Assembly: GCA_022482815.1 (NCBI GenBank)
Contig: JAKVOM010000001.1
Span: 496,001 to 560,000, forward strand
DNA: 64,000 nucleotides
Source: Acidaminococcus sp.
Lineage (GTDB): Bacteria; Bacillota; Negativicutes; Acidaminococcales; Acidaminococcaceae
Direction of reading: 5' to 3'
The notes beneath the pieces were generated by a model that was not told the DNA's origin, did not search any database, and worked only from the letters and a program-made list of their open reading frames with translations. This document shows positions 1,298 through 14,359 of this stretch, piece by piece. A program made the translations under genes and the position numbers. Position 1 is the first letter of the stretch. Each line of letters opens with the position of its first letter.

Positions 1298-2218
1298 TCA
1301 ATGTTCGTCGATGTACTTCGACACTCTGGAATGATATTCATCGAGTGTATCTGTCCGAACCTCCGTCTTTCTGCCAAAAATAAGGTCCGGCATATATCTG
1401 GCGCGCTTGCCGGCAGAAAACATGGCACGCTCACAGCCGATACAATAGACAACCACATCGTCACAGGGAAACTCATTCGCCCTCCTTTTGATGCGGCGCT
1501 CTACTTCTTCATTGGGGACATACCCATAAAAGTTATCGCCGCAGCACTCGGACGTCATACCGTGATGCTTAGCCTCGACGACTTCGATGTTCATTTTCTT
1601 AAGAAGACTGCGAATAGCCGCATGAACCTGCGGCTTATGACGATACCCGCAGGAGTCGTGAACCGACATCTTTATGCCATGGTAGTCAGGCAATTTCAGG
1701 TCATCAAAGCTGTCAATAACCTCCCAGAACGAAATCGTACGAATTCCGGCATAAAGGGAACGGAAACGACGGTCACAGCCGGCACAGTTATTGATAATGA
1801 CAGACCCTTCCGGCAGTTTAGGATCATGGTGGCAGCACAAATTGTGAAATTTGACATCACCCAGATGCTCGCTCAGCATCTGAAGCATCAGAGGCGGCAG
1901 TTCCGGCTTATACACACTGAGGGCACAGCCCGGATTAAAATAACACTTATCCCGGTCAATGTCAGAGATGGCAATACTGCTTCTCACCTTCTCAGGACTA
2001 TGAGCAGCACCGGTCGGACATACGCTGGAGCAAGTACCGCAGTCGATACACTTTGCGGCATCCACCTGGTAGTGACTGGCACCCATCGAAATAGCATGTA
2101 CCGGACACAACCTTACGCAGGCGCCGCATTTGATGCAGGCATCTGAAATTTCAAAATGGAACTTATCCTCTACCCCGGTTATCACCGGAGCTGCCGGACA
2201 AATATGGGATTTTTCCAT
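1298..2218 (-). CDS. 4Fe-4S ferredoxin-type protein with CCG cysteine-rich domain
   Basis: 306 residues. Two classic 4Fe-4S motifs lie at the N-terminus: C28-C31-C34-C38 (CIKCGACVRLCP) and C57-C60-C63-C67 (CIDCGTCSSVCP). A Cys-rich C-terminal half contains CCHHD, NNCAGC, DSCGY, ECCGDNF and CIGCE segments. These resemble the CCG domains of heterodisulfide-reductase-B-like and glycolate-oxidase iron-sulfur proteins. A role as cytoplasmic electron carrier or subunit of a redox complex is inferred; no partner flavoprotein is adjacent. The start has a good ribosome site (GGAGG, 7 bp away). It is transcribed divergently from the thioesterase gene, and the two promoters overlap at their -35 boxes. 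Substrate and partner are unknown. Confidence 0.8.
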   Translation of the reverse strand: MEKSHICPAAPVITGVEDKFHFEISDACIKCGACVRLCPVHAISMGASHYQVDAAKCIDCGTCSSVCPTGAAHSPEKVRSSIAISDIDRDKCYFNPGCALSVYKPELPPLMLQMLSEHLGDVKFHNLCCHHDPKLPEGSVIINNCAGCDRRFRSLYAGIRTISFWEVIDSFDDLKLPDYHGIKMSVHDSCGYRHKPQVHAAIRSLLKKMNIEVVEAKHHGMTSECCGDNFYGYVPNEEVERRIKRRANEFPCDDVVVYCIGCERAMFSAGKRARYMPDLIFGRKTEVRTDTLDEYHSRVSKYIDEH

Positions 2219-2259
2219 AGTTTTCCTCCATTCACTTCCGTTTAATTCGTTTTTATTTT

Positions 2260-2288
2260 ATGATACCCATCCGACTTATTGTTTTCAA
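2260..2288 (-). promoter_or_regulatory. Promoter of the Fe-S protein gene
   Basis: Read on the minus strand, TTGAAA (2283-2288) and TATCAT (2260-2265) are separated by exactly 17 bp. The start codon follows about 40 bp downstream with a GGAGG ribosome site. The -35 box occupies the same bases as the -35 box of the opposite promoter. Confidence 0.65.
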
Positions 2289-2309
2289 GGGTCCGGTTTC
2301 CTGTATAAT
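2282..2309 (+). promoter_or_regulatory. Promoter of the thioesterase gene
   Basis: TTTTCA (2282-2287) and a perfect TATAAT (2304-2309) are 16 bp apart. The -35 hexamer overlaps that of the divergent Fe-S gene promoter, so RNA polymerase should not be able to occupy both at once. Confidence 0.6.
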
Positions 2310-2390
2310 AGGAGTATCATACAAGCATGATATTTCCTACATTTTGATGAAACTCATCGCAAGTCTTTCCATACTGAAGGAGGAATCCCT

Positions 2391-2786
2391 ATGATTATTA
2401 CTATCAAACCAAATTCCAAAGGTACGGCTGAAATGCGCTGCACCAAAGAGAATACGGCTGACCGCTATGCCAAAGGCACCGTTCCCGTATTTGCCACACC
2501 GGCCCTCGTCGGTCTGATGGAGGACGCCGCCGTACGCGCCATCAAGGATCAGCTGCTCGAAGGGTATACCACCGTCGGCGGCGGCATGAATTTAAAGCAC
2601 TTGGCAGCTACGCCAATCGGCCTTACGGTACGCGCCGAAGCGACGCTCATTAGTCAGGACCGCAAAAAGCTGACTTTTTCCATCAAGGCCTGGGACGACA
2701 AGGATCTCGTTGGGGAAGCCGAACATGACCGCTTTATCGTGGAAAAAGATAAGTTTCTGGAAAAAGCCTACAGTAAAGTCAAATAA
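2391..2786 (+). CDS. Hot-dog fold acyl-CoA thioesterase, FlK-like
   Basis: 131 residues, a single hot-dog domain. Candidate catalytic residues are T36, E44 and H70. Their spacing (8 and 26) matches the Thr-Glu-His triad known from fluoroacetyl-CoA thioesterase FlK. Surrounding motifs are VFATPALVGLMEDAA and GGGMNLKHLAATPIG. Proteins of this family hydrolyse small acyl-CoA thioesters in the cytoplasm; the actual substrate cannot be read from sequence. A very strong ribosome site (GAAGGAGG) precedes the ATG at 2391. The gene is a single transcription unit ending in the hairpin at 2925-2970. Confidence 0.85.
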   Translation: MIITIKPNSKGTAEMRCTKENTADRYAKGTVPVFATPALVGLMEDAAVRAIKDQLLEGYTTVGGGMNLKHLAATPIGLTVRAEATLISQDRKKLTFSIKAWDDKDLVGEAEHDRFIVEKDKFLEKAYSKVK

Positions 2787-2924
2787 AAAAGCGCTTTTGG
2801 CATATAGCTTTTGGCCTTGTCCGGGACAGCATGGTACAGCCTATAGGCGAAGCAAAATGAAAACAAAATTACCACGGCAATTTTCATTCTCCATTGGCTG
2901 ACTGCCACATCTATAGACTATGAG

Positions 2925-2970
2925 AAAGAGGCTGTGAAACAATGAGCAATCATTATTTCACAGCCTCTTT
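2925..2970. terminator. Bidirectional hairpin terminator (GGCTGTGAAA family, copy 1)
   Basis: An inverted repeat, AAAGAGGCTGTGAAA...TTTCACAGCCTCTTT, lies between convergent genes, with A and T tracts on its two sides. The same palindrome recurs with small changes at four further sites in this window. Confidence 0.8.
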
Positions 2971-2991
2971 TACTATGTGAATCGTATCCTC

Positions 2992-3561
2992 TTATTTCAT
3001 TAATTTACTACCGGTGCTCCAGGCAGTACCTGCCTTTTTTCCGACTGTGTAGTAGTCGCCGCGGAATTTGTCAAAAATCAGAGCGTTCACTTTAAGCGGA
3101 TCAATGTTTCCTTCAGCGTCTAATACATCTGCATCTGCCAATACGCCTTTAATCTGTCCAAGTACACGGAAACCATATATAGTATGCTGCAAATCTACCG
3201 CATGGCATTCCAGCGTCACAGGAAATTCTTCGATTACCGGCGCATCCACAAGATTACTCTTCTTTGCAGTAAGTCCGGATTTCGCAAATTTATCTTTATC
3301 CCGATTTCCGGAAACCATACCAAAGAAATCAGCTTCTACGATATGTTTTGCATCGGCGAGAGCCACCGTAAAATCACCGCGCTCCTTGATGTTCTTTGAA
3401 GTCTTATGGCCTTCAGAAATGTTCAGGGCAATCATGTCAGAAGCACAGGCTCCGCCCCATGCAACATTCATGACGTCCACAGTCCCATCCGGTCCGTAGG
3501 TTGCGACCATGAGAACCGGCATCGGGAAAATGTAAGGTTTAATGTCCATTCTGCGTTTCAT
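2992..3561 (-). CDS. Flavin reductase-like domain protein
   Basis: 189 residues from MKRRMDIKPYIFPMPVLMV. I chose the ATG at 3561 rather than an upstream in-frame one at 3603 because AAAGGAG lies 9 bp before it. The domain is the FMN-binding split-barrel flavin reductase fold: the N-terminal PVLMVATYGPDGTVDVMNVAWGG strand pair, then NISEGHKTSKNI and FTVALADAKHIVEADFFG. Such proteins bind FMN and are reductases or flavoredoxin-like electron carriers in the cytoplasm. A distant paralogue lies at 52184-52705. It stands alone between a terminator and the 3.6 kb hairpins; no partner oxidoreductase is adjacent. Substrate is unknown. Confidence 0.85.
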   Translation of the reverse strand: MKRRMDIKPYIFPMPVLMVATYGPDGTVDVMNVAWGGACASDMIALNISEGHKTSKNIKERGDFTVALADAKHIVEADFFGMVSGNRDKDKFAKSGLTAKKSNLVDAPVIEEFPVTLECHAVDLQHTIYGFRVLGQIKGVLADADVLDAEGNIDPLKVNALIFDKFRGDYYTVGKKAGTAWSTGSKLMK

Positions 3562-3626
3562 TATTCTTCTCTCCTTTAAAAATAAAATCATATTGTTCCT
3601 CATTCAAGCTGTGCTCAATACGTAAA

Positions 3627-3720
3627 CAAGCAGATAACCGTGCGGGATTGCGCCTTGATTCCGCCAGTTATCTGCTTGCACAGAGAAATAAACTTTTCCG
3701 ATACATTTCTCTGCAAAATT
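3627..3720 (-). terminator. Two tandem hairpins downstream of the alcohol dehydrogenase
   Basis: Hairpin 1 (about 3628-3677) has a 12-bp perfect stem, CAAGCAGATAAC/GTTATCTGCTTG, around a 26-nt loop. Hairpin 2 (about 3680-3716) pairs CAGAGAAAT with ATTTCTCTG. On the minus strand the first is followed by TTTACG, a weak T tract. They lie between the alcohol dehydrogenase stop and the flavin reductase start. They are probably a terminator, or an attenuator in the leader of the downstream gene. Confidence 0.5.
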
Positions 3721-3801
3721 TTGGAAGAGGAGACTATTACACAAAAGTTGATTTGAGATGGCGATTCAGCAATCACCGTTTTTAATCAAAATAAAGTGAT
3801 T

Positions 3802-4983
3802 TCAAATTGAAGGGTTCTTTGAAATGGCTTCTTGTAAAACAGCGAGCAGTTCGGCATCCGAAATTTCAGCAGGAATAGCATTGAACGGACGCTGTGCTCT
3901 GATTTTTGGCAGCAAAGACAGCAGAGATACATCTTCCGGAAGCAGGTCACCAAGACCAGGCATCCCAATTTTTTGATTTAAGGAAGTCACTGCTTCCGCC
4001 AAAGTATCTCCCACATCTGCCTTTGATGACACAGAAATACCCATGGCTGACAGAATCTTGCCTGCACCAACCGGGTTTACTTTTCCTACCCATCTTAATA
4101 CGGCCGGCATGACAACTGCGCATGCCCTTCCGTGTGCGATATGAAATTCACCGCCCAATGCCTGGGCAATAGCATGGGATAACTGGGTAGATGCGTTTGA
4201 AAAAGCAAGTCCGCCGAGGACAGCCGCGAAAGCCATGTTTTCCCTGGCAGAAATATTTCCGCCATCCTGAACGGCGTTCACCAAATTGTCGTGGATAAGG
4301 CGAATCGCCCTTTCAGCCAGAACATCGCTGATTGGATTTGTACAATTGCATGTCAACGCGTCGCATGCATGAGCAAATGCATCCATTCCCGTCGCAGCAG
4401 TTAAGGAAGCCGGCATAGAAAGGGTAAGTTCCGGATCCACAACTGCAAACGTCGGAGCGAGTTCCTTAAAGGAAATAGAGGCCTTGCGTCTGCCTTTCCG
4501 CGTATCCGTGATCACTGAAAAACTGGTAACCTCACTGCCTGTACCCGCTGTAGTCGGCACCAGATACATCGGCTTAAGAGGCTGCAGCTTCAAGGAACAC
4601 GGCGCAAAATATTGATGGATTGGCATGGGATTGGTCAACAAAAGATTCACTACCTTAGCAGAATCCAGAACACTTCCGCCGCCAATTCCGACAACACAGT
4701 CGACCTGCTCCTCACGGGCAATTTCGGCTGCTTTCTCGACCGCCGCATCAGTAGGATCAGAGGGAATCCCACTTTGACACAAGAAGCGAATTTTCAAGTC
4801 GGTTAGGGCTTGCGTCAGTCGAGAGAGTACACCGGATTTTTCCACGCTTCTTCCGTGGAGAATCAGCACATGGCGGCAGGACTGCTCTGAAAGGAGCCTG
4901 CCAAGTTCATCGAAAGCACCTCTTCCAAACAGAAGAGGTGCTCCGATGTGTTTATAAAGACAGAGGTTTCGAGCTAAAGACAT
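3802..4983 (-). CDS. Iron-containing (group III) alcohol dehydrogenase
   Basis: 393 residues, the usual length for the family. The NAD(P)-binding GGGS motif is at 101-104. The four metal ligands expected for iron-type dehydrogenases are D201, H205 (MDAFAHACDAL), H270 (LSHAIAQALGG) and H284 (HIAHGRA). The enzyme should interconvert an alcohol and an aldehyde or ketone using NAD(P)H in the cytoplasm. It is the last gene of a three-gene minus-strand operon, 32 bp after the MaoC gene. Sitting with a CoA-acylating aldehyde dehydrogenase, it could convert a hydroxy acid or alcohol to the aldehyde that enzyme takes (inference). The best ribosome site (AAGGAG) is 13 bp upstream, rather far. Physiological substrate is not known. 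Confidence 0.9.
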   Translation of the reverse strand: MSLARNLCLYKHIGAPLLFGRGAFDELGRLLSEQSCRHVLILHGRSVEKSGVLSRLTQALTDLKIRFLCQSGIPSDPTDAAVEKAAEIAREEQVDCVVGIGGGSVLDSAKVVNLLLTNPMPIHQYFAPCSLKLQPLKPMYLVPTTAGTGSEVTSFSVITDTRKGRRKASISFKELAPTFAVVDPELTLSMPASLTAATGMDAFAHACDALTCNCTNPISDVLAERAIRLIHDNLVNAVQDGGNISARENMAFAAVLGGLAFSNASTQLSHAIAQALGGEFHIAHGRACAVVMPAVLRWVGKVNPVGAGKILSAMGISVSSKADVGDTLAEAVTSLNQKIGMPGLGDLLPEDVSLLSLLPKIRAQRPFNAIPAEISDAELLAVLQEAISKNPSI

Positions 4984-5015
4984 TACAGAAAAAGATCTCC
5001 TTTTATTACGATTTA

Positions 5016-5501
5016 CTACACAGCTTTCTTGTCTGCATCCACAGGATTATTCATCATGCGAACGATAATACCCGCAGCAACGAGTTCATCCCGCTGATTC
5101 AGGACATCATACTGCCAGGTAAAGATTCCCTTTCTGGGGTTACTGGTTAAGTGTTTCTCCTTAAGGGTCATCTTGAGACGAATCGTATCATTGATCATGA
5201 CCGGTTTCAGGAACTTCCAGTCCTTCACTTCCAGGAACACGGAATGGAAGCAGCCCAACCGCATGTAGAGTCCGTTTGCGATAGCAAGCGTGAGCATCCC
5301 ATGAGCAATTCTGTGGCCAAAACGAGTCTTGCTGGCATACACATCACTGGTATGCAGTTCGTTGAAATCTCCTGTAAGTCCGGCAAATTGAAAGATATCT
5401 GAATCTGTAATCGTGCGGCTGGCAGTCTCAAAGATGTCGCCAACTTCTACATCACCGTAAAAGAGTTCAGATTTATAGTTTTTCACTCTTCTCAGCCCCA
5501 A
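5016..5501 (-). CDS. MaoC-like (R)-specific enoyl-CoA hydratase
   Basis: 161 residues with one MaoC hot-dog domain. The hydratase signature is intact: GLTGDFNELHTSDVYA with D45, N47 and H50, followed by FGHRIAHGML. Family members add water to trans-2-enoyl-CoA, or dehydrate 3-hydroxyacyl-CoA, in the cytoplasm. The start overlaps the end of the upstream aldehyde dehydrogenase gene by 10 bp, which suggests translational coupling. A hydratase in this operon implies that the acyl-CoA made by the dehydrogenase, or an intermediate on the way, passes through a 2-enoyl/3-hydroxyacyl stage (inference). Confidence 0.88.
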   Translation of the reverse strand: MGLRRVKNYKSELFYGDVEVGDIFETASRTITDSDIFQFAGLTGDFNELHTSDVYASKTRFGHRIAHGMLTLAIANGLYMRLGCFHSVFLEVKDWKFLKPVMINDTIRLKMTLKEKHLTSNPRKGIFTWQYDVLNQRDELVAAGIIVRMMNNPVDADKKAV

Positions 5502-6871
5502 ACTTCATCAGGAGTAGGAATATGAGCATTGTCATTCGTGTAAGCGATACGGCTTACGTTGATGAGGTGCTTATAGTCAAGGTTTTCACTGATGCTGTTA
5601 TTGCCCCAGCTGCCGCAGCCCAGCGTGCCCGTAGGAGCAAGACCGTTGGTGTAAGCACCGCCCAGACCGGAAGAACCAATGCCATTAACCAGGAAACGGG
5701 AAACCGGCAGTCTCATAGCAGCTTCCTTGATATGAGCATCCGTGAAGGAATGCAGGCTCACACTGTGACCACGTCCGTCCATAGCGAGGTTTGCATCAGC
5801 AATATCAATGGCCTCATCCCAGGTATCATAGGTATACAGTGCCATAACAGGGAACATCTTTTCTCTGCCGAGCACGTCCATCTTGCCGGGTCCCTTAGCT
5901 CTGACAACAATGGTACGAGTCCCTTCCGGAAGCTTGATGCCGGCAATATTAGCGATGAATTCAACAGACTGACCTACAACATCTTTTCTGAACTTACCAT
6001 CGATAAACGTAGCATTGCGGACTTTTTCTGCTTCTTCTTCGTTATCGATGTAATAAGCGCCGTTCTTTCTCAGTTCGGCAGCCATTTCGTCTACCTTTTC
6101 CTTCGGGCAGATAATAGCCTGTTCGCAAGTGCAGGAAATGCCGTTATCGAAGATTCTGCCTTGAATAATTTTGGGAGCTACAACAGCCAAGTCTACATCG
6201 CGGTCAACCAGGCACTGGTTGTTGCCGGCGCCGACACCGTAAGCAGGCTTTCCGCTTGCATAAGCAACCTTTACCATGCTGGCACCACCGGTAGAAATGC
6301 AAACATCGGTCGATCTCATTACAGCTTGGGAAATTTCCAGAGACGGCTTTTCAACGCAGATCAGCAAATCTTCAGGAGCGCCAACTGCCTTCAGAGCCTG
6401 ACGCATATATTCGACACACTTAAAGGTACTCTTCTTAGCTCTGGGATGCGGGCAAACAATCATGGAGTTTCTGCCTTTCAGCGTAATCATTCCGTTATGG
6501 GCAGGAGTCATGGTCGGGTTCGTCGTCGGAGTAATGCAGCCGACAACGCCGATTGGTTTTGCAACCAATACGAGGCCTTCATCCTTCAGTTCCTTGATAA
6601 CGCCTACGCTCTTTTTGTTTCTCAAATGCCACCAGGTTGCCATCGGTTTATTGCGGTTCTTGGCAATCTTATATTCTACCGTACCCATGCCGGTTTCTTC
6701 AGCGGCCATAGTTCCTAATTCAACAGCATTGTCATAAACAGCTTTACCAATTGCTTTTACAACCCGATCTACCTGAGCTTGATCATACGTTTCAAAAATC
6801 TTTTGAGCAGCTCTGGAACGAGCGATCAGCCCATCTACATATGCCTGCACATCATTCATTTCTTCACTCAT
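5492..6871 (-). CDS. CoA-acylating aldehyde dehydrogenase
   Basis: 459 residues, aldehyde dehydrogenase superfamily. The catalytic region reads FDNGISCTCEQ, with C237 as the likely thiol nucleophile. This NG-x-x-C-x-x-EQ pattern is typical of acetylating/acylating enzymes (EutE, SucD and sulfoacetaldehyde dehydrogenase types) rather than acid-forming ones. It should oxidise an aldehyde to its acyl-CoA with NAD(P)+, or run in reverse. It is the first gene of the minus-strand operon, with AAAGGAG placed well before the ATG. It is expressed from a promoter whose -10 box abuts a palindromic operator shared with the divergent permease. Which aldehyde it uses (succinate semialdehyde, sulfoacetaldehyde or a short aliphatic one) cannot be decided from sequence. 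Confidence 0.88.
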   Translation of the reverse strand: MSEEMNDVQAYVDGLIARSRAAQKIFETYDQAQVDRVVKAIGKAVYDNAVELGTMAAEETGMGTVEYKIAKNRNKPMATWWHLRNKKSVGVIKELKDEGLVLVAKPIGVVGCITPTTNPTMTPAHNGMITLKGRNSMIVCPHPRAKKSTFKCVEYMRQALKAVGAPEDLLICVEKPSLEISQAVMRSTDVCISTGGASMVKVAYASGKPAYGVGAGNNQCLVDRDVDLAVVAPKIIQGRIFDNGISCTCEQAIICPKEKVDEMAAELRKNGAYYIDNEEEAEKVRNATFIDGKFRKDVVGQSVEFIANIAGIKLPEGTRTIVVRAKGPGKMDVLGREKMFPVMALYTYDTWDEAIDIADANLAMDGRGHSVSLHSFTDAHIKEAAMRLPVSRFLVNGIGSSGLGGAYTNGLAPTGTLGCGSWGNNSISENLDYKHLINVSRIAYTNDNAHIPTPDEVWG

Positions 6872-6906
6872 GATAAGTTCTCCTTTCGTGCTTTCACGTT
6901 ACGTAG

Positions 6907-6926
6907 TATGTAGAACGTTCTATGTA
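6907..6926. promoter_or_regulatory. Operator 1: palindrome TAGAACGTTCTA
   Basis: The 20-bp site TATGTAGAACGTTCTATGTA contains the perfect 12-bp palindrome TAGAACGTTCTA (6911-6922). It begins 1 bp downstream of the -10 box of the aldehyde dehydrogenase promoter, so a bound protein would cover the transcription start. An identical 20-mer stands in the same place at the divergent permease promoter. Confidence 0.75.
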
Positions 6927-6927
6927 A

Positions 6928-6955
6928 AGTATAGCAAGAATAAAATATTTTGCAA
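6928..6955 (-). promoter_or_regulatory. Promoter of the aldehyde dehydrogenase operon
   Basis: On the minus strand TTGCAA (6950-6955) and TATACT (6928-6933) are spaced by 16 bp. Operator 1 follows at once. The 577-bp divergent region between the two operators (about 6960-7360) holds no gene I can support. Confidence 0.65.
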
Positions 6956-7363
6956 CCCCCAATTTTAAAAAAATTCAGATTATATTTTTCCTACTATAAA
7001 TCAATGAGCCAAATTTCCCATCGGAGATATCTATATCTTTATTTCCTAATCTAAGGAAAAGATTCCCTGCAAGAATAATGTGCTGCCTTTCAGGTACCCA
7101 CAATTCCCAAGTCCTTCTCCCCACGGATCAGACAGCCTGGAACGGCCGCTGGCCTGTAAAATACAACATCTAAAGGGTTTTACTCATTTATTACTCCAGG
7201 TAGTAGTTTTCCAAATTCAGCACGATTTATTCGAAACAGTTTGTAAAGGATCTACTTTATACATTGGAAAAAATAGAAGTTTCACTTTAGTTGGAATAAA
7301 TGAAACAGATATACCGTCTTTTCATTTTATAAAATTTCTGTAAAAAATTATTTACTGAAAATA

Positions 7364-7392
7364 TTGACTTTTATTTCGTTCGAGAGTAACAT
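7364..7392 (+). promoter_or_regulatory. Promoter of the GntP-type permease gene
   Basis: TTGACT (7364-7369) and TAACAT (7387-7392) are spaced by 17 bp. Operator 2 begins 1 bp after the -10 box, mirroring the arrangement at the divergent operon. Confidence 0.65.
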
Positions 7393-7393
7393 C

Positions 7394-7413
7394 TATGTAG
7401 AACGTTCTATGTA
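7394..7413. promoter_or_regulatory. Operator 2: identical palindrome TAGAACGTTCTA
   Basis: This is identical over 20 bp to operator 1, about 490 bp away. Together they indicate that one transcription factor controls the permease and the enzyme operon. No regulator gene lies next to the module in this window. Confidence 0.75.
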
Positions 7414-7448
7414 GTGTATCTGAAAATTCATTCAAGGAGGTCTTTTCC

Positions 7449-8753
7449 ATGTCAATCTCTGTAATTGGGCTTGTCCTTAGTCTTCTGCTCCTTATCTATC
7501 TCGCGTTTAAAGGGCACAGTACTATTTGGATTGCCCCCGTCTGCTCCCTTGTCATTGCAATCTTCGGCAGTATGAATCTGGTGGATACAATTCTCAAGAC
7601 TTACATGGCAGGAGCCGCTAAATATTTTCAGACCTGGTTCCCCGTCTTCTTCCTCGGTGCTGTTTACGGCGCCGTGATGGATAAAACAGGTGCTGCTAAA
7701 TCTTTGGCTAACAAAGTTATTCAAATTATCGGTGAGAAACATGCCATTGCAGTTGTTGTAGCAATTGGTCTGTTACTGACGTACGGCGGCGTAAGCTTAT
7801 TCGTTGTTGTATTCGTTACTTATCCAATTGCTTACGAACTTTATAAGGCTGCCAATCTTTCCAGAACCTTGATTCCAGGCGCCATCGCCCTGGGTACTTA
7901 CGGCGTCACCATGACGTGCTTCCCTGGGACCCCTTCTATTCAGAACCTGATCCCGACTGAATACCTTGGAACAACTCCAACTGCAGCACCGCTGCTCGGT
8001 ATTATTGCCGGCATCATGATTTTTATTCCTGGTTATATCTATCTGCAGCACCGCGCTAAACAAACGCGTGCAGCCGGAATGGGATTTGAGGAAGATGAAG
8101 AATATGAAGCTAAAAAGGTAAAAGATGACAGAACCTATCCTTCCTGGCACTGGCTTTCCGGTTTGATTCCTATTTTCTTTGTAATCCTGCTTTTAACAGC
8201 CTTCAAAACACCTGTAGTGCTTGCTCTTCTTGCCGGTATCCTGCTGTGCTGCCTTCTGAACATCAACCAGGGTGAAACATTGCTGGACTCTTTTACTGAA
8301 GGAGCTAAATCTTCCATGCTCCCAATCCTGGCTACCTGCAGCGTCATTGGTTACGGCGCCGTAGTAAAAGCTTCTCCCGGTTTTACAGTTCTGACCGAAC
8401 TTGCCATGAATGTCCCCGGCGGCGTTCTGATTTCCGAAGTCATCGCTATTAACATCCTTTCCGGTGCTACGGGATCCTCTTCCGCAGGTCTTGCCATTTC
8501 GCTGAGTACCCTCGGTCCTACATGGCTGGCACAAGCGGCTGCACAAGGAATCAGCCCGGAAATCGTCCACAGAATTGCAACGGTTGCTTCCGGTGGTCTG
8601 GATACCCTGCCGCATAACGCTCCGACTCAGACGGTGCTGGCACTTTCTCACTGCACCTACAAGCAGAGCTACAAGGATATCTGCTACACCTCCCTTGTAT
8701 TCCCGCTGATTACCGCAACCATCCTCGCAGTTGTACTCACCATTATTTACTAA
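7449..8753 (+). CDS. GntP-family organic acid permease
   Basis: 434 residues, strongly hydrophobic throughout, with about 12 predicted membrane spans and a charged cytoplasmic loop near residues 205-230 (GFEEDEEYEAKKVKDD). The repeat-like segments FPGTPSIQNLIP and SGGLDTLPHNAP, together with GATGSSSAGLAISL, are typical of GntP-type carboxylate and sugar-acid transporters. It should import an organic acid across the inner membrane. Ribosome site AAGGAGG precedes the ATG. The operator shared with the aldehyde dehydrogenase operon suggests it brings in the substrate, or a precursor, for that pathway (inference). The transported compound is not known. Confidence 0.85.
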   Translation: MSISVIGLVLSLLLLIYLAFKGHSTIWIAPVCSLVIAIFGSMNLVDTILKTYMAGAAKYFQTWFPVFFLGAVYGAVMDKTGAAKSLANKVIQIIGEKHAIAVVVAIGLLLTYGGVSLFVVVFVTYPIAYELYKAANLSRTLIPGAIALGTYGVTMTCFPGTPSIQNLIPTEYLGTTPTAAPLLGIIAGIMIFIPGYIYLQHRAKQTRAAGMGFEEDEEYEAKKVKDDRTYPSWHWLSGLIPIFFVILLLTAFKTPVVLALLAGILLCCLLNINQGETLLDSFTEGAKSSMLPILATCSVIGYGAVVKASPGFTVLTELAMNVPGGVLISEVIAINILSGATGSSSAGLAISLSTLGPTWLAQAAAQGISPEIVHRIATVASGGLDTLPHNAPTQTVLALSHCTYKQSYKDICYTSLVFPLITATILAVVLTIIY

Positions 8754-8824
8754 TCACGGGATGTATTCCTTTTCGTTTCACAATTAACTGATTTACAGAT
8801 TTACTCATCCATCTCACCTTAAAG

Positions 8825-8884
8825 AACCAAGACAGCAGTGGTTTATGAGCTTTATGCCCGCAAATCACTGCTGTCTTGGTTTTT
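8825..8884 (+). terminator. Terminator of the GntP-type permease gene
   Basis: A 16-bp perfect stem, AACCAAGACAGCAGTG paired with CACTGCTGTCTTGGTT, is followed by a T tract. Confidence 0.9.
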
Positions 8885-9051
8885 CCATCAGTGCCGGAGA
8901 TTTCTCACCGGATTGACAAACGGATTTTTATGTTACACCTCACTGAGTCGCAGCTATCGCTTTTAATTAGCTCATATTCTGACTTCAGTAATCTGCTTCT
9001 CATTCAATACAAGATTACACAGACTATTTTGCCTGCACGGACAGCCCGCCC

Positions 9052-9100
9052 AACTAAAAAAGACTGCTGCAAAATCATAATGCAGCAGTCTTTTTTAGTT
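9052..9100. terminator. Bidirectional terminator hairpin
   Basis: AACTAAAAAAGACTGCTGC is inverted as GCAGCAGTCTTTTTTAGTT, symmetrical with A and T tracts on both sides. It ends the minus-strand permease gene that stops at 9114. The stretch 8885-9051 holds no supported gene. Confidence 0.85.
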
Positions 9101-9113
9101 GACAAGCGACCCC

Positions 9114-10271
9114 TCACATTGCCCAACGAATCATAAAGCTTCCCATTAATCCGGAAACGACCGAAACGGACACAATACCGGAGATAATAAGTTTCGGCAT
9201 GATGTAGTCCCACATGACTTTGACCTCATCCCCATTGCGGCCGCAGGCATTGGAAACTTCCTGAGCAATCAGGAAAGTGCCCGGAAATCCGAAAAAAGCG
9301 GCTGAAGCAAGGCCGATGGAAAGCCGCCAGCCGAAGTGAAGCAGCCGCCCGACAAGGACGGAAGCCACTACGCACAGGAGGGCGCCCAGGACGAGCACCA
9401 CAGAAAGCGGCGCAATCATGGAAATCAGCATATCCGGCGTGGTCTGGGTCAAGCCGGCAAAGATCATGGTAAAGATGGAAGCCATGACAAAGGTAAAGCC
9501 GTTGGCTTTCACAAGGCAATTTTCTTCGACCAGGCCTATTGCGTGGAAGATAACGCCGGCAATGAGCCCCAGGATCATCCAGTTGATGCCCGTCACCTTG
9601 CTCAGCACGGAGCAAAGATAAGAAATCAAGGCAAGCTTACAGATAATGACATTGGGCTCGCTCATTTTTTCCGGCAGCCTGATCAGCGGCTTTTTCACGG
9701 CATCAGCGGTTTGCTTGACTGCCTGGATCTTGCCGCTGCGGAAGGCGTCCATGTAGCGGTCCCCTGATTTTTTGCAGAAGAAGCTCGCCATCGGAATGCC
9801 GATAAAGCTCTGCGTCACGAGGACGAGGACGCCAAAAATCTTAAGTTCCGGACGACCCGTGATTTCGGCAAGCGGTTCCATGATGAGGTAGGAAATCGTG
9901 GCACCTGCCATAATAGGCGCACTCATCAGGGCATAATAAGTATCGATAAAGAGTTTGCCGATGAAGAAAACACCCAGGCAAATAGCGACAGTGCTTACGA
10001 AAGCAAGAACGACAGTCTTCCATTCTTTCAGAAATTGATCGAAGTTAATGGAAGAACCGATATGGATCATGGCCATGCAGATGGTAATCTTAGCAAATGG
10101 CAGCAGCCCGGAATCGACAAAAAGCGTGCGCGGCACACCATTCCAGAAGGAAATGGTGAAAATAGTGGCACTGACGAGGAACATCGAGATAAAGGCCTTC
10201 GTCTTATCTGCAATAAAGTCGCCGATGGAGTAGACGAGGAACACATAAAACATGGCTAATACTGGATTCAT
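9114..10271 (-). CDS. Polytopic membrane protein, putative carboxylate/amino-acid permease
   Basis: 385 residues with about 10-11 hydrophobic spans and one long hydrophilic loop (about 165-210, RYMDAFRSGKIQAVKQTADAVKKP). The layout, two bundles of spans around a central loop with G-rich segments such as IMAGATISYLIMEP and AAFFGFPGTFLIAQE, recalls sodium-coupled GltS-like carriers. I cannot assign it firmly to that family. It lies 18 bp after an HMG-CoA-lyase-like gene in the same operon, so it may transport that enzyme's substrate (inference). Ribosome site AGGAGG is 11 bp before the ATG. Confidence 0.7.
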   Translation of the reverse strand: MNPVLAMFYVFLVYSIGDFIADKTKAFISMFLVSATIFTISFWNGVPRTLFVDSGLLPFAKITICMAMIHIGSSINFDQFLKEWKTVVLAFVSTVAICLGVFFIGKLFIDTYYALMSAPIMAGATISYLIMEPLAEITGRPELKIFGVLVLVTQSFIGIPMASFFCKKSGDRYMDAFRSGKIQAVKQTADAVKKPLIRLPEKMSEPNVIICKLALISYLCSVLSKVTGINWMILGLIAGVIFHAIGLVEENCLVKANGFTFVMASIFTMIFAGLTQTTPDMLISMIAPLSVVLVLGALLCVVASVLVGRLLHFGWRLSIGLASAAFFGFPGTFLIAQEVSNACGRNGDEVKVMWDYIMPKLIISGIVSVSVVSGLMGSFMIRWAM

Positions 10272-10289
10272 GATACGTGCTTCCTCCTG

Positions 10290-11207
10290 TTACTGACGGC
10301 AGAGCAGACAATCTTGTTTGTCATACAAATGGCTCGTATGGACAGCCCCGGTTTCACTGCACATCGTATTGGCAGCGGCAATCAGTTTTTTCACGTCGTA
10401 ACCGGTATCGTATCCTGCCGCTTCCAACATATTCACGATATCTTCCGTAGGCAGATTATAGTTGCCGGGAATAAAAGCAAACGGGCCGGTACCGACACCG
10501 CCCAGGGAGCCTTCCACAGAGGTAATACCGGATTCCACCGCTGCAAACACGTTAGCAAGTCCCATACCGTAAGCATTGTGGACGTGGATGGACAAGCGTG
10601 ACAGATCTACACTGCCCTTCAGCCCTTCAATGATTTCCCGGACATGAGCCGGTGAGGAAAGACCTGCCGTATCGGCCAGGCTGATTGTGGAAACGCCGGC
10701 AGTCAGTGCCGCGTCGCAGATGTATTTCAGCCGGTCCAGCGTCACTTCATCGCCAAAAGGAGAACCGAAAGAACAAAGCAGACCGATTTTCAGTTTCGCT
10801 CCCCCGGCGCGGCTCAGGATTTCCCGCATATTAGAAAGGGACTGTTCCAGCGTCGTATGAATCAGTTTTTCATTCGTGGCGTCACTGGCTGAAAAGGCAT
10901 ATTGAAGGGAAGTGGCACCTGCCTCAAGTGCCCTTTTGAGCCCCTCTACATCAAAAGCAAGCCCCATGCACTCCACATCCAGATGATGGGCCGCTACATA
11001 CGCCCGGGTTTGTTTCATCACTTCGGCTGCATCTTTCATCTGGGGAACCTTTTCCGGATCGGCAAAATTCACAAGATCCAGGATGCGGGCCCCGCTGTCG
11101 ATCATCATTTTAATATACTGCAGCTTCTTTTCCGTCGGAATCACAAAAGGCTGATGTTCCCAACCGTCGCGAGGACAAGCTTCGACTACACAAATCTTCT
11201 TACGCAT
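10290..11207 (-). CDS. HMG-CoA lyase-like DRE-TIM metallolyase
   Basis: 305 residues from MRKKICVVEACPRDGWEHQ. I prefer the ATG at 11207 over the in-frame start at 11261 because GGAGGG lies 10 bp before it. The fold is the HMGL-like TIM barrel: the first metal site is in EACPRDGWEHQ and the HVHNAYG motif supplies metal-binding His residues. Two features differ from true HMG-CoA lyases. RDGLQ is replaced by RDGWE, and the glycine loop carrying the catalytic Cys (usually GGCPYA) reads LGGVGTGPFAF without Cys. It is therefore probably a related retro-aldol or Claisen enzyme with another substrate. It is the first gene of an operon with the permease downstream. Confidence 0.8.
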   Translation of the reverse strand: MRKKICVVEACPRDGWEHQPFVIPTEKKLQYIKMMIDSGARILDLVNFADPEKVPQMKDAAEVMKQTRAYVAAHHLDVECMGLAFDVEGLKRALEAGATSLQYAFSASDATNEKLIHTTLEQSLSNMREILSRAGGAKLKIGLLCSFGSPFGDEVTLDRLKYICDAALTAGVSTISLADTAGLSSPAHVREIIEGLKGSVDLSRLSIHVHNAYGMGLANVFAAVESGITSVEGSLGGVGTGPFAFIPGNYNLPTEDIVNMLEAAGYDTGYDVKKLIAAANTMCSETGAVHTSHLYDKQDCLLCRQ

Positions 11208-11664
11208 TGTTATACAACCCTCCATACCTTTTATAACTTTCCCCTCAAGAGTCCATGTCACTCGTACAAATAGTGATAAAGTCCATTAAAAATTAAGGAA
11301 AATTTCCCAGGCTCAGCCTGTTTTTTATCCATATTGTAATGATGTCCCCATTCTGCCGTCCAATAGTTATTTTAAATAACTTTATAAGGGTGGTTTATAA
11401 TTTGTAAAAAAAAGGCTGTGAATAATGCACACGCATTATTTCACAGCCCCTTTCACGCAGGTCGCCGGTCGCTGGGCGCGGGGCGCCCGTAGAAGAAACA
11501 TGACCTTTTATTAAGCCAAACCGTCAGGTTTGGCATTCCTTTGGAACCTCTTTCCACGTAGTCGGAAGGAGGAGACCACGAAGTGGCGGAAGATAGTACC
11601 AATCCATGTCTAAATACCATAAGCTAATAGCCGGAAGTGCTTTATCTCTCAGGCTGTCGGCAGC
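11208..11664. repeat. Intergenic repeat island 1
   Basis: There is no gene here. The modules in order are: a short inverted repeat TCACT...AGTGA at 11258-11276 in the leader of the lyase gene; the GGCTGTGAA-family hairpin at 11407-11454; a GGTCGC-type stretch at 11459-11490; and an inverted-orientation copy of the CCACTTCGTGG block at about 11501-11632. That last block holds CCAAACCGTCAGGTTTGG, CTTTCCACGTAGTCGGAAGG and CCACGAAGTGG. The same modules recur in the same neighbourhoods elsewhere in the window. Confidence 0.75.
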
Positions 11665-13059
11665 TCACATCTTCAAAATACGGATCAGCATGAACCAGGC
11701 CAGGCTGTAATACGTCACGACGCCAACAAGGTCCGTCACAGTCGTAATCAAAGGACCCGACGCTACGGCCGGATCGACATGGATGCGTTTAAAAAACATG
11801 GGTACGACGGTTCCGACAAGGCTCGAAATCAGCATGGAAAGCATGAGACTGAGTCCGATGCACAAGGAAATGCTGAAAGCGGTAAAGGCGGGATAATGCT
11901 TTGCCGCCGTAATGTAGATGCCAATTGCGCCCACGGCAATCACACCGAGAATCAGCCCGTTGCAGAAACCGGCTGAGGCTTCCTTGCGGATGAGTTTCCA
12001 TTTTTCGCTGCCGGACAGATTCTCGTCCATGAGAACCCTGATTGTCACCGCCAGGGACTGCGTACCGACGTTGCCTGACATATCGAGAATCATGGACTGA
12101 AACGCCATAATCAGTGTCAGCTTGGCGACCACCTGCTCATACATGCCGACAACTGTGGAGACAAGAACCCCCAAAAAAAGCAGCAAAATGAGCCATGGCA
12201 GTCTTTTTTTGATGGACTGGGACAACGGCTCGTCCAAGTCTTCTTCGGCGCTCAAACCGCCTAATTTTGCGTAATCGTCGCCTAATTCGTCGCCGATGAC
12301 CTCAGCAATGTCACTGGCCGTCACGACGCCCAGGATCTTCTTGTCCTGAGACAACACCGGAATAGATGCTTCTTCGTAGTCCTCGATAATCTGCACGCAG
12401 TCTGAAATCTTTTCGTTGGCGTACACAAAAGGGAAGCCCTTGACAATGATTGTATCAAGCGGCGTATCCCTGCGGGCCACAATGAGATCCTTCAGCGAAA
12501 AGGCACCGGCGTACATGTCGTTCTGGTCCACGACGTAAATGACTGTAATATTATCATTGTCCGCAGCTTCCTTGACGACTTCTTTCATCGCTTCGGGCAC
12601 GGTCATACATTTTTCAACCGTCACAAAGTTCGTCGTCATCCGGGAAGCGATAGTATCTTCGTCAAAGGAAGCCAGGGCTGTCAGTGATTTCCGGATTTCC
12701 GGATTCATCTTGGCCAGCCAGGATGTCTTCTTTTCGCTGTCTGTATTCTTCAGGAAGTCGACAGCTTCATCAGACTCCATGGATGATAAAATGGCAGCAG
12801 CCCGCTCATCAGGCATTTCTCCCAAATACTTTTCTGCATCATCTGTATCTTCGACGTATTCCAGGATTTCGGCCATCCGGTCTACCGGCAAAATCTGGGA
12901 GAGGTGCAGCCGCTCTGCCGGAGTCAATAGCCCGAACACATCGGCAATATCGTTTTCATGGTAATCGGTCAAGGCATTTCGTATCCAGCCTGCATCCTTT
13001 CCTGAACGAATGAGCTGCAAAATCTTTTGGACACGTGCTTCCTGAATTTTCTTTTCCAT
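11665..13059 (-). CDS. mgtE: MgtE-type magnesium transporter/channel
   Basis: 464 residues with the full MgtE architecture. The N-terminal MgtE domain (about 1-130, helical repeats such as MPDERAAAILSSM) is followed by two CBS domains (about 135-255), a connecting helix, and a five-helix membrane domain (about 280-464) containing GNVGTQSLAVTIR and the C-terminal TTVTDLVGVVTYY. It forms a dimeric inner-membrane Mg2+ channel gated by cytoplasmic Mg2+ through the N and CBS domains. It is monocistronic and divergent from the LysR gene. I looked for an M-box riboswitch in the roughly 390-bp upstream region and did not recognise one. Ribosome site GGAGGGG. Confidence 0.93.
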   Translation of the reverse strand: MEKKIQEARVQKILQLIRSGKDAGWIRNALTDYHENDIADVFGLLTPAERLHLSQILPVDRMAEILEYVEDTDDAEKYLGEMPDERAAAILSSMESDEAVDFLKNTDSEKKTSWLAKMNPEIRKSLTALASFDEDTIASRMTTNFVTVEKCMTVPEAMKEVVKEAADNDNITVIYVVDQNDMYAGAFSLKDLIVARRDTPLDTIIVKGFPFVYANEKISDCVQIIEDYEEASIPVLSQDKKILGVVTASDIAEVIGDELGDDYAKLGGLSAEEDLDEPLSQSIKKRLPWLILLLFLGVLVSTVVGMYEQVVAKLTLIMAFQSMILDMSGNVGTQSLAVTIRVLMDENLSGSEKWKLIRKEASAGFCNGLILGVIAVGAIGIYITAAKHYPAFTAFSISLCIGLSLMLSMLISSLVGTVVPMFFKRIHVDPAVASGPLITTVTDLVGVVTYYSLAWFMLIRILKM

Positions 13060-13095
13060 GATTGTCCCCTCCTTTTCTTTATAGATTCCGTGACC

Positions 13096-13124
13096 ATTAT
13101 ATCCCGTAAATTGAAATAATACAA
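13096..13124 (-). promoter_or_regulatory. Promoter of mgtE
   Basis: On the minus strand TTGTAT (13119-13124) and a perfect TATAAT (13096-13101) are spaced by 17 bp. The leader is only about 30 nt, too short for a riboswitch if this is the sole promoter. The remaining divergent region is AT-rich and has one hairpin, CCCAATGCC...GGCATTGGG, at about 13287-13316. Confidence 0.65.
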
Positions 13125-13345
13125 ATTAATTCGTTATAAAATCAAAAAAATAGAGTGCTAATTTCTCCTAATCGTAAAATTTAGGTAAAAATCGCCGATA
13201 AATTGTGAAAATTAACTTTTTTGGCAATAAACACTAAGAAAAAATATTGAATAACAAGAATGGATTTGAGCTTAGTTTCCTCTCCTCCCAATGCCATCCT
13301 CAGATTCGGCATTGGGCCATTATCGCTTAACTTATATAAAAGGGG

Positions 13346-13374
13346 TTGCACTGCGTCCAATAAGGGGTTATCAT
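13346..13374 (+). promoter_or_regulatory. Promoter of the LysR-family regulator gene
   Basis: TTGCAC (13346-13351) and TATCAT (13369-13374) are spaced by 17 bp, upstream of the ATAAGGAG ribosome site of the LysR gene. Confidence 0.6.
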
Positions 13375-13456
13375 GATTTTATAATTATGACTTATAATTT
13401 TTATTTTCAAAATAAAAATTATAAAAGTTATTTATTTTATATAAGGAGTCGCTCCC

Positions 13457-14359
13457 ATGAATTTACCTCAGCTTCACTATTTCAAATGCCTGGCCGAGAC
13501 CCTTCATTACACGCGGACGGCAGAAAAGCTGCATATCTCCCAGCCCGGACTGAGTTACGCCATCCATGAGCTGGAAAAAGAACTCGGAGTCCCCCTTTTT
13601 GAACGCAGGGACCGTCACCTCGCGCTGACGAAATATGGAGAAGTCTTTTACCGCCACATTGATAAGGCACTAAAGGAAATTCAGCTGGCCACAGAAGATG
13701 TTCGTACACTGCAGTCTTACGCCGCCTCCACGATTTCCCTCGGCTACATGTACAGTCTTTCGACTTCCCTCATTCCCAAGGTCACGCAGCGGCTTTCGGA
13801 GAAGGCAGCCAATCGTCCGCTGCATTTTTCCTTCGTGCAGCAGCTGCATAACGAACTCATTGATTCTCTTAAAAGCGATGCCATTGACTTTGCCTTTGTG
13901 GGCGAATCGGACGATCCGGCCATTGAGACAGTACCCATCGAAAAACAAGACTTTTACCTCGTCGTAGCCAAAGGCCACCAACTTGCGAAATACGACAGTC
14001 TCAGCTTCCAGGAGTTCAAGGACTATCCTCTTGTCACGCTGCATCAGACCAGTTCCCTCCGCAGAATCATCGATAAGCAGTACAAAGCACTGGGAGCTGT
14101 TCCTATCGTTCTTGCCGAGACAAAGGACCCGACGACGACGCTCCAGTATATCACGCAGAATTATGGCATCACCATTATTCCTGATCTGCCCAATATGGAT
14201 CAGTTCCCGGTAAAACGTATCCAGATTACAACGCCCGGATTCTGCCGGACGATTTATCTGGCCTGGAAAAAGCAGAATCTCTTCACGGAACCGGTCCGCC
14301 GCATTCTGGATTTCATGGTAAAGGAGTTTGGGAAGAAAACTCTTGATAGCAATAACTAA
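13457..14359 (+). CDS. LysR-family transcriptional regulator
   Basis: 300 residues. The N-terminal winged helix-turn-helix spans about 1-60 (LHYTRTAEKLHISQPGLSYAIHELEKELGVPLFERRDR), with a linker helix and then a substrate-binding domain (about 88-295) of the periplasmic-binding-protein fold. Such proteins bind DNA as tetramers and respond to a small-molecule co-inducer. It stands alone and diverges from mgtE. LysR proteins often control the adjacent divergent gene, but nothing in the sequence ties it to Mg2+. The TAGAACGTTCTA sites at 6.9-7.4 kb do not look like a typical T-N11-A LysR box, so I do not link it to them. Confidence 0.92.
   Translation: MNLPQLHYFKCLAETLHYTRTAEKLHISQPGLSYAIHELEKELGVPLFERRDRHLALTKYGEVFYRHIDKALKEIQLATEDVRTLQSYAASTISLGYMYSLSTSLIPKVTQRLSEKAANRPLHFSFVQQLHNELIDSLKSDAIDFAFVGESDDPAIETVPIEKQDFYLVVAKGHQLAKYDSLSFQEFKDYPLVTLHQTSSLRRIIDKQYKALGAVPIVLAETKDPTTTLQYITQNYGITIIPDLPNMDQFPVKRIQITTPGFCRTIYLAWKKQNLFTEPVRRILDFMVKEFGKKTLDSNN

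Follow-up and report, generated by a model that had tools for sequence, protein, structure and literature searches.

The stretch of DNA analysed here (the window, 64,000 nucleotides, G000:C1:496001-560000 in a genome of 3,057,042 bases and a single contig) carries an identical 20-mer, TATGTAGAACGTTCTATGTA, beside each of two predicted divergent promoters, which raises the question of which regulator would act through this pair of putative operators and which genes would be placed under its control. The first-pass annotation had proposed that the regulon is run from elsewhere and may contain more genes. In agreement with this, a third site (at up to 2 mismatches, genome-wide) precedes a GntR-type gene located beside an acetylene hydratase-like gene.

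The operator pair and its flanking genes

The features of the window that bear on this question are the following, in window positions:

2992..3603, minus strand: flavin reductase-like protein, possible final gene of the operon, after a 198-bp gap
3802..4983, minus strand: iron-containing alcohol dehydrogenase
5016..5501, minus strand: MaoC-type hydratase, with a 10-bp overlap with the aldehyde dehydrogenase gene
5492..6871, minus strand: predicted acyl-CoA-forming aldehyde dehydrogenase (AdhE N-terminal / SauS / acetylating ACDH type), PF00171
6901..6925, no strand: four ACGT-like tetrads with a 7-bp period, ACGT-AGT-ATGT-AGA-ACGT-TCT-ATGT, overlapping operator 1
6907..6926, no strand: operator 1 (the 20-mer), start region of the aldehyde dehydrogenase operon
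6928..6955, minus strand: promoter-like TTGCAA-16-TATACT of the aldehyde dehydrogenase operon (consensus match)
7364..7392, plus strand: promoter-like TTGACT-17-TAACAT of the permease (consensus match)
7394..7413, no strand: operator 2 (the same 20-mer), start region of the permease, with tetrads ATGT-AGA-ACGT-TCT-ATGT at 7395-7412
7449..8753, plus strand: GntP-family-like permease (PF02447, 48.5 bits, cut-off 22.5)

In the window scan the 20-mer was found twice, as annotated (6907-6926 and 7394-7413), and allowing up to 3 mismatches added no further copy; the mean number of matches in 100 dinucleotide-preserving shuffles of the window was 0.00. Its centre, TAGAACGTTCTA, is indeed a perfect 12-bp palindrome, and the sequence flanking the two copies differs, with no similarity between them. 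The -10-like hexamers are TATACT (minus strand, 6933 to 6928) and TAACAT (plus strand, 7387-7392). Exactly one base separates each hexamer from its 20-mer, so that the claimed start 1 bp past the -10 box is confirmed on both sides, the boxes themselves being plausible; measured up to the first tetrad instead, the gap is 2 bp at both operators. Promoter-like matches in the operator region number 3, against a shuffle mean of 2.8, and because this is the chance level the window promoters are at most plausible.

For the aldehyde dehydrogenase, the top NCBIfam models are AdhE, SauS, and acetylating ACDH, each under its cut-off. Among the ten proteins scanned (1298-14359), the sole regulator is a LysR protein at 13457, and thus the annotated lack of an adjacent regulator gene stands. 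The surroundings also include an FlK (fluoroacetyl-CoA thioesterase)-type hotdog thioesterase at window 2391-2786, adjoining the operon. On the other side, a 385-aa membrane-protein-like frame at window 9114-10271 matches no Pfam or NCBIfam model at E<=0.001 and is directly preceded, on the same strand, by an HMGL-like lyase gene (10290-11261).

A third site and the candidate regulator P0001

Exact matches of TAGAACGTTCTA occur only twice in the genome, both at the window operators, with 4 more at 1 mismatch; the 12-mer is therefore not scattered at random, the outcome that the annotation had named as telling against an operator. The extended 18-bp form, AYRTAGAACRTTCTAYRT, is found at up to 2 mismatches in three places, namely both operators and G000:C1:479204-479221. 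This third site, ATGTAGAACATTCTATGT, fits the pattern perfectly on one strand and with a single mismatch on the other. It is situated 184 bp upstream of the gene for P0001 and ~23.5 kb from the operators, and its flanks are unlike those of either window copy. The reversed control of AYRTAGAACRTTCTAYRT gives 0 matches in this genome at up to 1 mismatch and 2 per strand at up to 2, and thus only the level of 0-1 mismatch is clearly above background. At up to 3 mismatches, AYRTAGAACRTTCTAYRT has 7 matches on one strand and 8 on the other, with the three sites among them, against 18 and 17 for the reversed control, and 3-mismatch matches of the 18-mer were dismissed as background, their total being below the control.

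Three of the 1-mismatch 12-mers were rejected as sites of the regulon, those at 1245705 and 1248141 for being devoid of ATGT flanks and near a LysR gene, and that at 1816120 for lying within a 283-aa open frame. The first two (L008) belong to similar upstream sequences 2.4 kb apart that carry TAAAACGTTCTATAC, one copy preceding an intact LysR gene and the other an apparent remnant.

The repeat could instead be a product of chance or a recombinational duplicate devoid of a regulatory role, as insertion sequences do lie nearby. However, the dissimilar flanks of the two copies, the lack of matches in the shuffles, and the presence of a third near-identical site, with different flanks and in front of a regulator gene, render this very improbable.

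P0001 is a GntR regulator of 244 residues encoded outside the window (G000:C1:479406-480137). Its GntR domain (PF00392) scores 63.1 bits against a cut-off of 27, and its FCD domain (PF07729) is a weak match of 20.5 bits, the cut-off being 24.3. The operator contains the core GT-AGA-AC, with outer bases ATGT/ACGT rather than TKGT/ACMA. Among the 11 GntR-domain matches in the genome, P0001 appears to be the best candidate repressor of the operator pair. The genes to its right encode a protein with a molybdopterin-binding domain, a solute-binding protein, and a transport permease, and an ATPase-like frame follows; given their order next to molybdopterin genes, the last three are interpreted as modABC. 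On the left, divergently oriented, are genes for a 749-residue Mo/W-pterin protein (the acetylene hydratase-like protein), MoeA, and MoaC. The intergenic features of this divergon are as follows:

L007:4534-4558, minus strand: hydratase-side array ATGT-AGT-ACGT-AGT-ACAA-AAT-ACGT
ending at L007:4573: promoter-like TTGATT-17-TATAAT (10/12), hydratase side; the array starts at 4558 (minus strand), 14 bp between
ending at L007:4690: promoter-like TTGACA-17-TAGAAT (11/12), regulator side; the third site starts at 4705, 14 bp between
upstream of P0001: putative regulator-site array ATGT-AGA-ACAT-TCT-ATGT
L007:4805-4833: extra promoter-like TTGTGA-17-TATAAT, between the third site and the P0001 start codon

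Promoter-like matches in this divergon number 4 against 2.6 (sd 1.7) in shuffles, not clearly above chance. The spacing described for the window pair does not extend to the regulator divergon, where 14 bp, instead of the 1 bp annotated between box and 20-mer, lie between the -10-like box and the first tetrad.

Two 98% identical insertion sequence copies in the same orientation (G000:C1:484086-485977 and 495297-497178, the latter reaching window position 1178) enclose PTS, murQ-like, nagA-like, and aminotransferase-like frames, named by frame reading, and this stretch separates the regulator locus from the operon. The IS-flanked segment may have been inserted between the two, and no target-site duplication for a composite insertion of this segment (484.1-497.2 kb) was seen.

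From the observed sites, gene order, homologies, and the period-7 enrichment described below, we infer, with a probability of roughly 0.78, that P0001 is a FadR-type repressor that acts through tetrad-array operators on the aldehyde dehydrogenase operon, the permease, its own gene, and probably the hydratase-like gene, and that is released by an inducer. Bound over the start region, P0001 would block the aldehyde dehydrogenase/MaoC/alcohol dehydrogenase operon and the GntP-like permease gene. It would repress its own gene from the third site and, probably, the divergent acetylene hydratase-like gene from the weaker array. The inducer would most likely be a metabolite of the imported substrate, of the carboxylate or CoA type.

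The direction of this control and the inclusion of the hydratase-like gene deserve separate consideration. Some GntR proteins are activators, and the promoter-like match at L007:4805-4833 might be the promoter of P0001, in which case the third site would be upstream of a promoter. Nevertheless, the window sites lie at and downstream of the predicted -10 boxes, a position suited to blocking the start of transcription rather than to recruiting polymerase, which makes repression most likely and a role of P0001 as an activator or dual regulator quite unlikely. With regard to the hydratase-like gene, its array is imperfect, with 4 mismatches to the 18-bp operator consensus, and there is a substantial, though minority, chance that the gene only neighbours P0001 and lies outside the regulon. 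Against this, 3/4 of its tetrads fit, and the 14-bp gap to the -10-like box, common to both sides of the divergon, is one reason to include it. Moreover, the gene is present here together with the regulator and the module, although absent from the other class genomes searched (see below). Repression by P0001 that probably includes the hydratase-like gene is thus the reading followed here.

Tetrad arrays with a 7-bp period

The annotation had described each operator as a single palindrome bound by one dimeric repressor. The shared operator is retained, but it appears better described as a series of ACGT-like (AYRT) tetrads at 7-bp intervals than as a single 12-bp palindrome, an array that could hold more than one dimer. 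Adjacent tetrads yield GT-N3-AC, which is the core of the FadR subfamily, and additional half-sites 7-12 nt from the site centre are described in 13 FadR groups (PMC4494728). Since neighbouring tetrads form such FadR-type sites, two P0001 dimers may sit side by side on each operator.

Similar arrays are found near relatives of P0001. The closest one (44%, in genome G302), which adjoins an iron alcohol dehydrogenase gene, is preceded by ACAT-AGT-ACAT-AGT-ACAT, with 5 bp between the end of this array and the start codon. A second relative on the same contig is followed by six tetrads at a 7-bp period, ACGT-TGA-ACGT-TGA-ATGT-TGA-ACGT-TGA-ACGT-AAC-ACGT (L067:7508-7546), located upstream of a frame read as a CoA-transferase. 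Both relatives exceed the FCD cut-off, with 27.0 and 38.2 bits.

Phylogenetic footprinting with the exact operator gave matches at up to 1 mismatch in 16 of 380 class genomes (own included) against 33 for the reversed control, and because the control matches more genomes, the operator consensus outside this genome is background; two congeners have one 2-mismatch place apiece for AYRTAGAACRTTCTAYRT. Moreover, no homologue of P0001 above 44% identity was found in the order, class, and phylum genomes searched. A looser array grammar was tested for these two reasons. A first test, which counted exact triads at any position of 29 homologue loci, found 2 where 0.3 were expected. The array test was then restricted to the 250 bp upstream of each of 31 regulator genes, those of P0001 and of 30 homologues with loci, where the best triad at up to 2 mismatches and period 7 was present in 17/31, against 7.9 (sd 2.2) in a dinucleotide-matched simulation, in a count that includes the loci that suggested the grammar, itself seen post hoc, and genomes that are not independent within a family. 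Periods 4-6 and 8-12 gave 6-11 of 31 against 6.5-8.9 simulated; among periods 4-12, only 7 is enriched before P0001 relatives. With one gene per family, 7/8 families have the array at period 7, a count reached by 1/200 simulations, and periods 5, 6, 8, 9, and 10 give 0-4 of 8; a ninth family matched P0001 but had no locus and was left out of this test. The period-7 count is 5/6 when the own locus and G302 are removed, and 3/4 when G066 and G334 are removed as well (simulated ~0.36 per locus). As a control, 9 of 10 given loci that carry the other GntR domains of this genome (two probably in one frame) gave 2/9 at period 7 against 2.1 simulated, with a maximum of 4/9 at period 8.

The bare pattern AYRTN3AYRTN3AYRT has 12 matches in this genome, equal to the 12 of its reversed control; 5 of them are ATGTTTCACGTGAAACAT, 4 fall in the three operators, and 3 lie elsewhere. 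The five copies of ATGTTTCACGTGAAACAT are at G000:C1:643895-650986 and are probably parS sites. Furthermore, ACGTATGATGTTATACTG is found upstream of homologous GntR genes from three families (L033, L040, L042, L044, L055), as a candidate operator of that group.

These data also bear on the identity of the protein that binds the 20-mers. Regulators can themselves be controlled by others, so that P0001 could be under a different regulator instead of being autoregulated. Two candidates are closer to the operators than P0001, namely the LysR protein at 13457 and, by frame reading, a helix-turn-helix frame at L075:7035-7751, and the genome has further GntR domains. However, the only third site in the genome at up to 2 mismatches precedes a GntR gene and the core of the 20-mer is of the GntR/FadR kind, P0001 relatives in other families carry like arrays, and the nine other GntR loci do not exceed simulations. 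LysR proteins bind T-N11-A sites, and the 20-mer is unlike such a site. Binding by another regulator is thus unlikely, and P0001 is retained as the candidate.

In comparison with known systems, P0001 shares with the FadR-subfamily GntR repressors PdhR, LldR, and GlcC described in PMC4494728 the GntR winged-helix domain and the GT-N3-AC core, as well as one site per promoter of a divergon and the extra half-sites at 7-12 nt. Unlike the TKGT/ACMA boxes given for the subfamily in that source, the putative P0001 sites have ATGT/ACGT, and the FCD match of P0001 is under its cut-off. A second model is NanR of E. coli, three dimers of which bind a three-repeat operator (PMC8012715). It resembles the system proposed here in being a GntR repressor with short repeats less than half a helical turn apart, on which several dimers would sit side by side (inferred in our case), and differs in its repeat, GGTATA instead of AYRT tetrads every 7 bp with a palindromic centre (PMC8012715). 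As a FadR-type divergon the operator pair is unremarkable, but the predicted regulon to which it leads has an uncommon enzyme. At the position equivalent to FadR Arg35, P0001 has a Val residue and the aligned homologues have a residue other than Arg.

The acetylene hydratase-like protein and the proposed pathway

Compared with solved chains only, the 749-residue pterin protein matches acetylene hydratase of Syntrophotalea (Pelobacter) acetylenica (2E7Z) with an E value of 8.7e-236, the next solved chain having 1.9e-57, and shares with it 357/709 aligned positions (50.4%) over nearly the full length. The Fe4S4 cysteines 9, 12, 16, and 46 are kept, together with Asp13, Lys48, Cys141, Trp179, and Trp293, whereas Ile14, Ile113, Ile142, and Trp472 are replaced by Asn, Thr, Leu, and Leu, respectively. 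In acetylene hydratase, Ile14, Ile113, Ile142, and Trp293 line the pocket and Lys48 has a role as well; with the replacements, a more polar pocket is possible. Asp13 is reported as specific for the acetylene hydratase subfamily and Cys141 as strictly conserved, while Trp179 and Trp472 are near the active site and are named in a proposed mechanism, not as a definition of the family (PMC12096430). The same source describes the remaining members of the subfamily as devoid of biochemical characterisation. The protein studied here is called only acetylene hydratase-like, the hydration of acetylene being a putative activity. Catechol dehydroxylases are described as the closest to acetylene hydratase among bis-MGD enzymes (PMC7028382) and hence are relatives of this protein too, which may have an activity of that type.

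The known and putative acetylene hydratases described in PMC7858054 adjoin MarR and LysR genes and transporters, whereas here a GntR gene adjoins. A plasmid search with the hydratase-like protein returned one record, from Rhodococcus opacus (38%), and no GntR-named gene was among the 16 features listed near this homologue in an incomplete gene table. No paper containing both "acetylene hydratase" and "GntR" was found in the literature searched.

With regard to distribution, the hydratase-like protein is present in 1/380 class genomes at E<=1e-150, its own, and is absent from the 379 others. P0001 is likewise found only in its own genome among 63 of the order (E<=1e-25) and 398 of the phylum (E<=1e-40), and in 53/380 of the class at E<=1e-28, the best foreign match being the one at 44%. 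The aldehyde dehydrogenase occurs in 2/63 order genomes at E<=1e-110. The other copy (53%, G004) is set among different neighbours, which by frame reading include a GntR gene of its own and TRAP-transporter-like genes, and no operator at up to 4 mismatches was found in 18 kb of that genome. Within this sample, the regulator, the hydratase-like gene, and the operators are thus accessory in this strain. This agrees with a single acquired system but leaves no orthologous regulon to compare it with.

The fermentation of acetylene uses a hydratase, an acylating aldehyde dehydrogenase, and an alcohol dehydrogenase, and enzymes of the hydratase-like, acylating aldehyde dehydrogenase, and alcohol dehydrogenase kinds are all present here. 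On this basis, a GntR-run hydration fermentation can be put forward as a speculative proposal, in which the GntP-like permease would import an unsaturated substrate, the hydratase-like enzyme would convert it into an aldehyde, and the dehydrogenases would split the aldehyde into acyl-CoA and alcohol. The changed pocket residues and the GntP-like permease lead to the conjecture of a polar, perhaps carboxylated substrate, which would perhaps be a carboxylated alkyne.

The operator pair serves as a tag for its likely regulator and would place two loci ~23 kb from each other in a single regulon, and thus an orphan-looking gene set becomes testable. The link that it would make between the acetylene hydratase-like enzyme and a permease, an aldehyde dehydrogenase, and an alcohol dehydrogenase suggests candidate substrates. 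Moreover, the period-7 tetrad array provides a rule by which the operators of this GntR clade can be searched for. If the proposal is true, this strain would have a GntR-controlled pathway of the acetylene hydratase family, with an enzyme found in 0/379 other genomes of its class at E<=1e-150.
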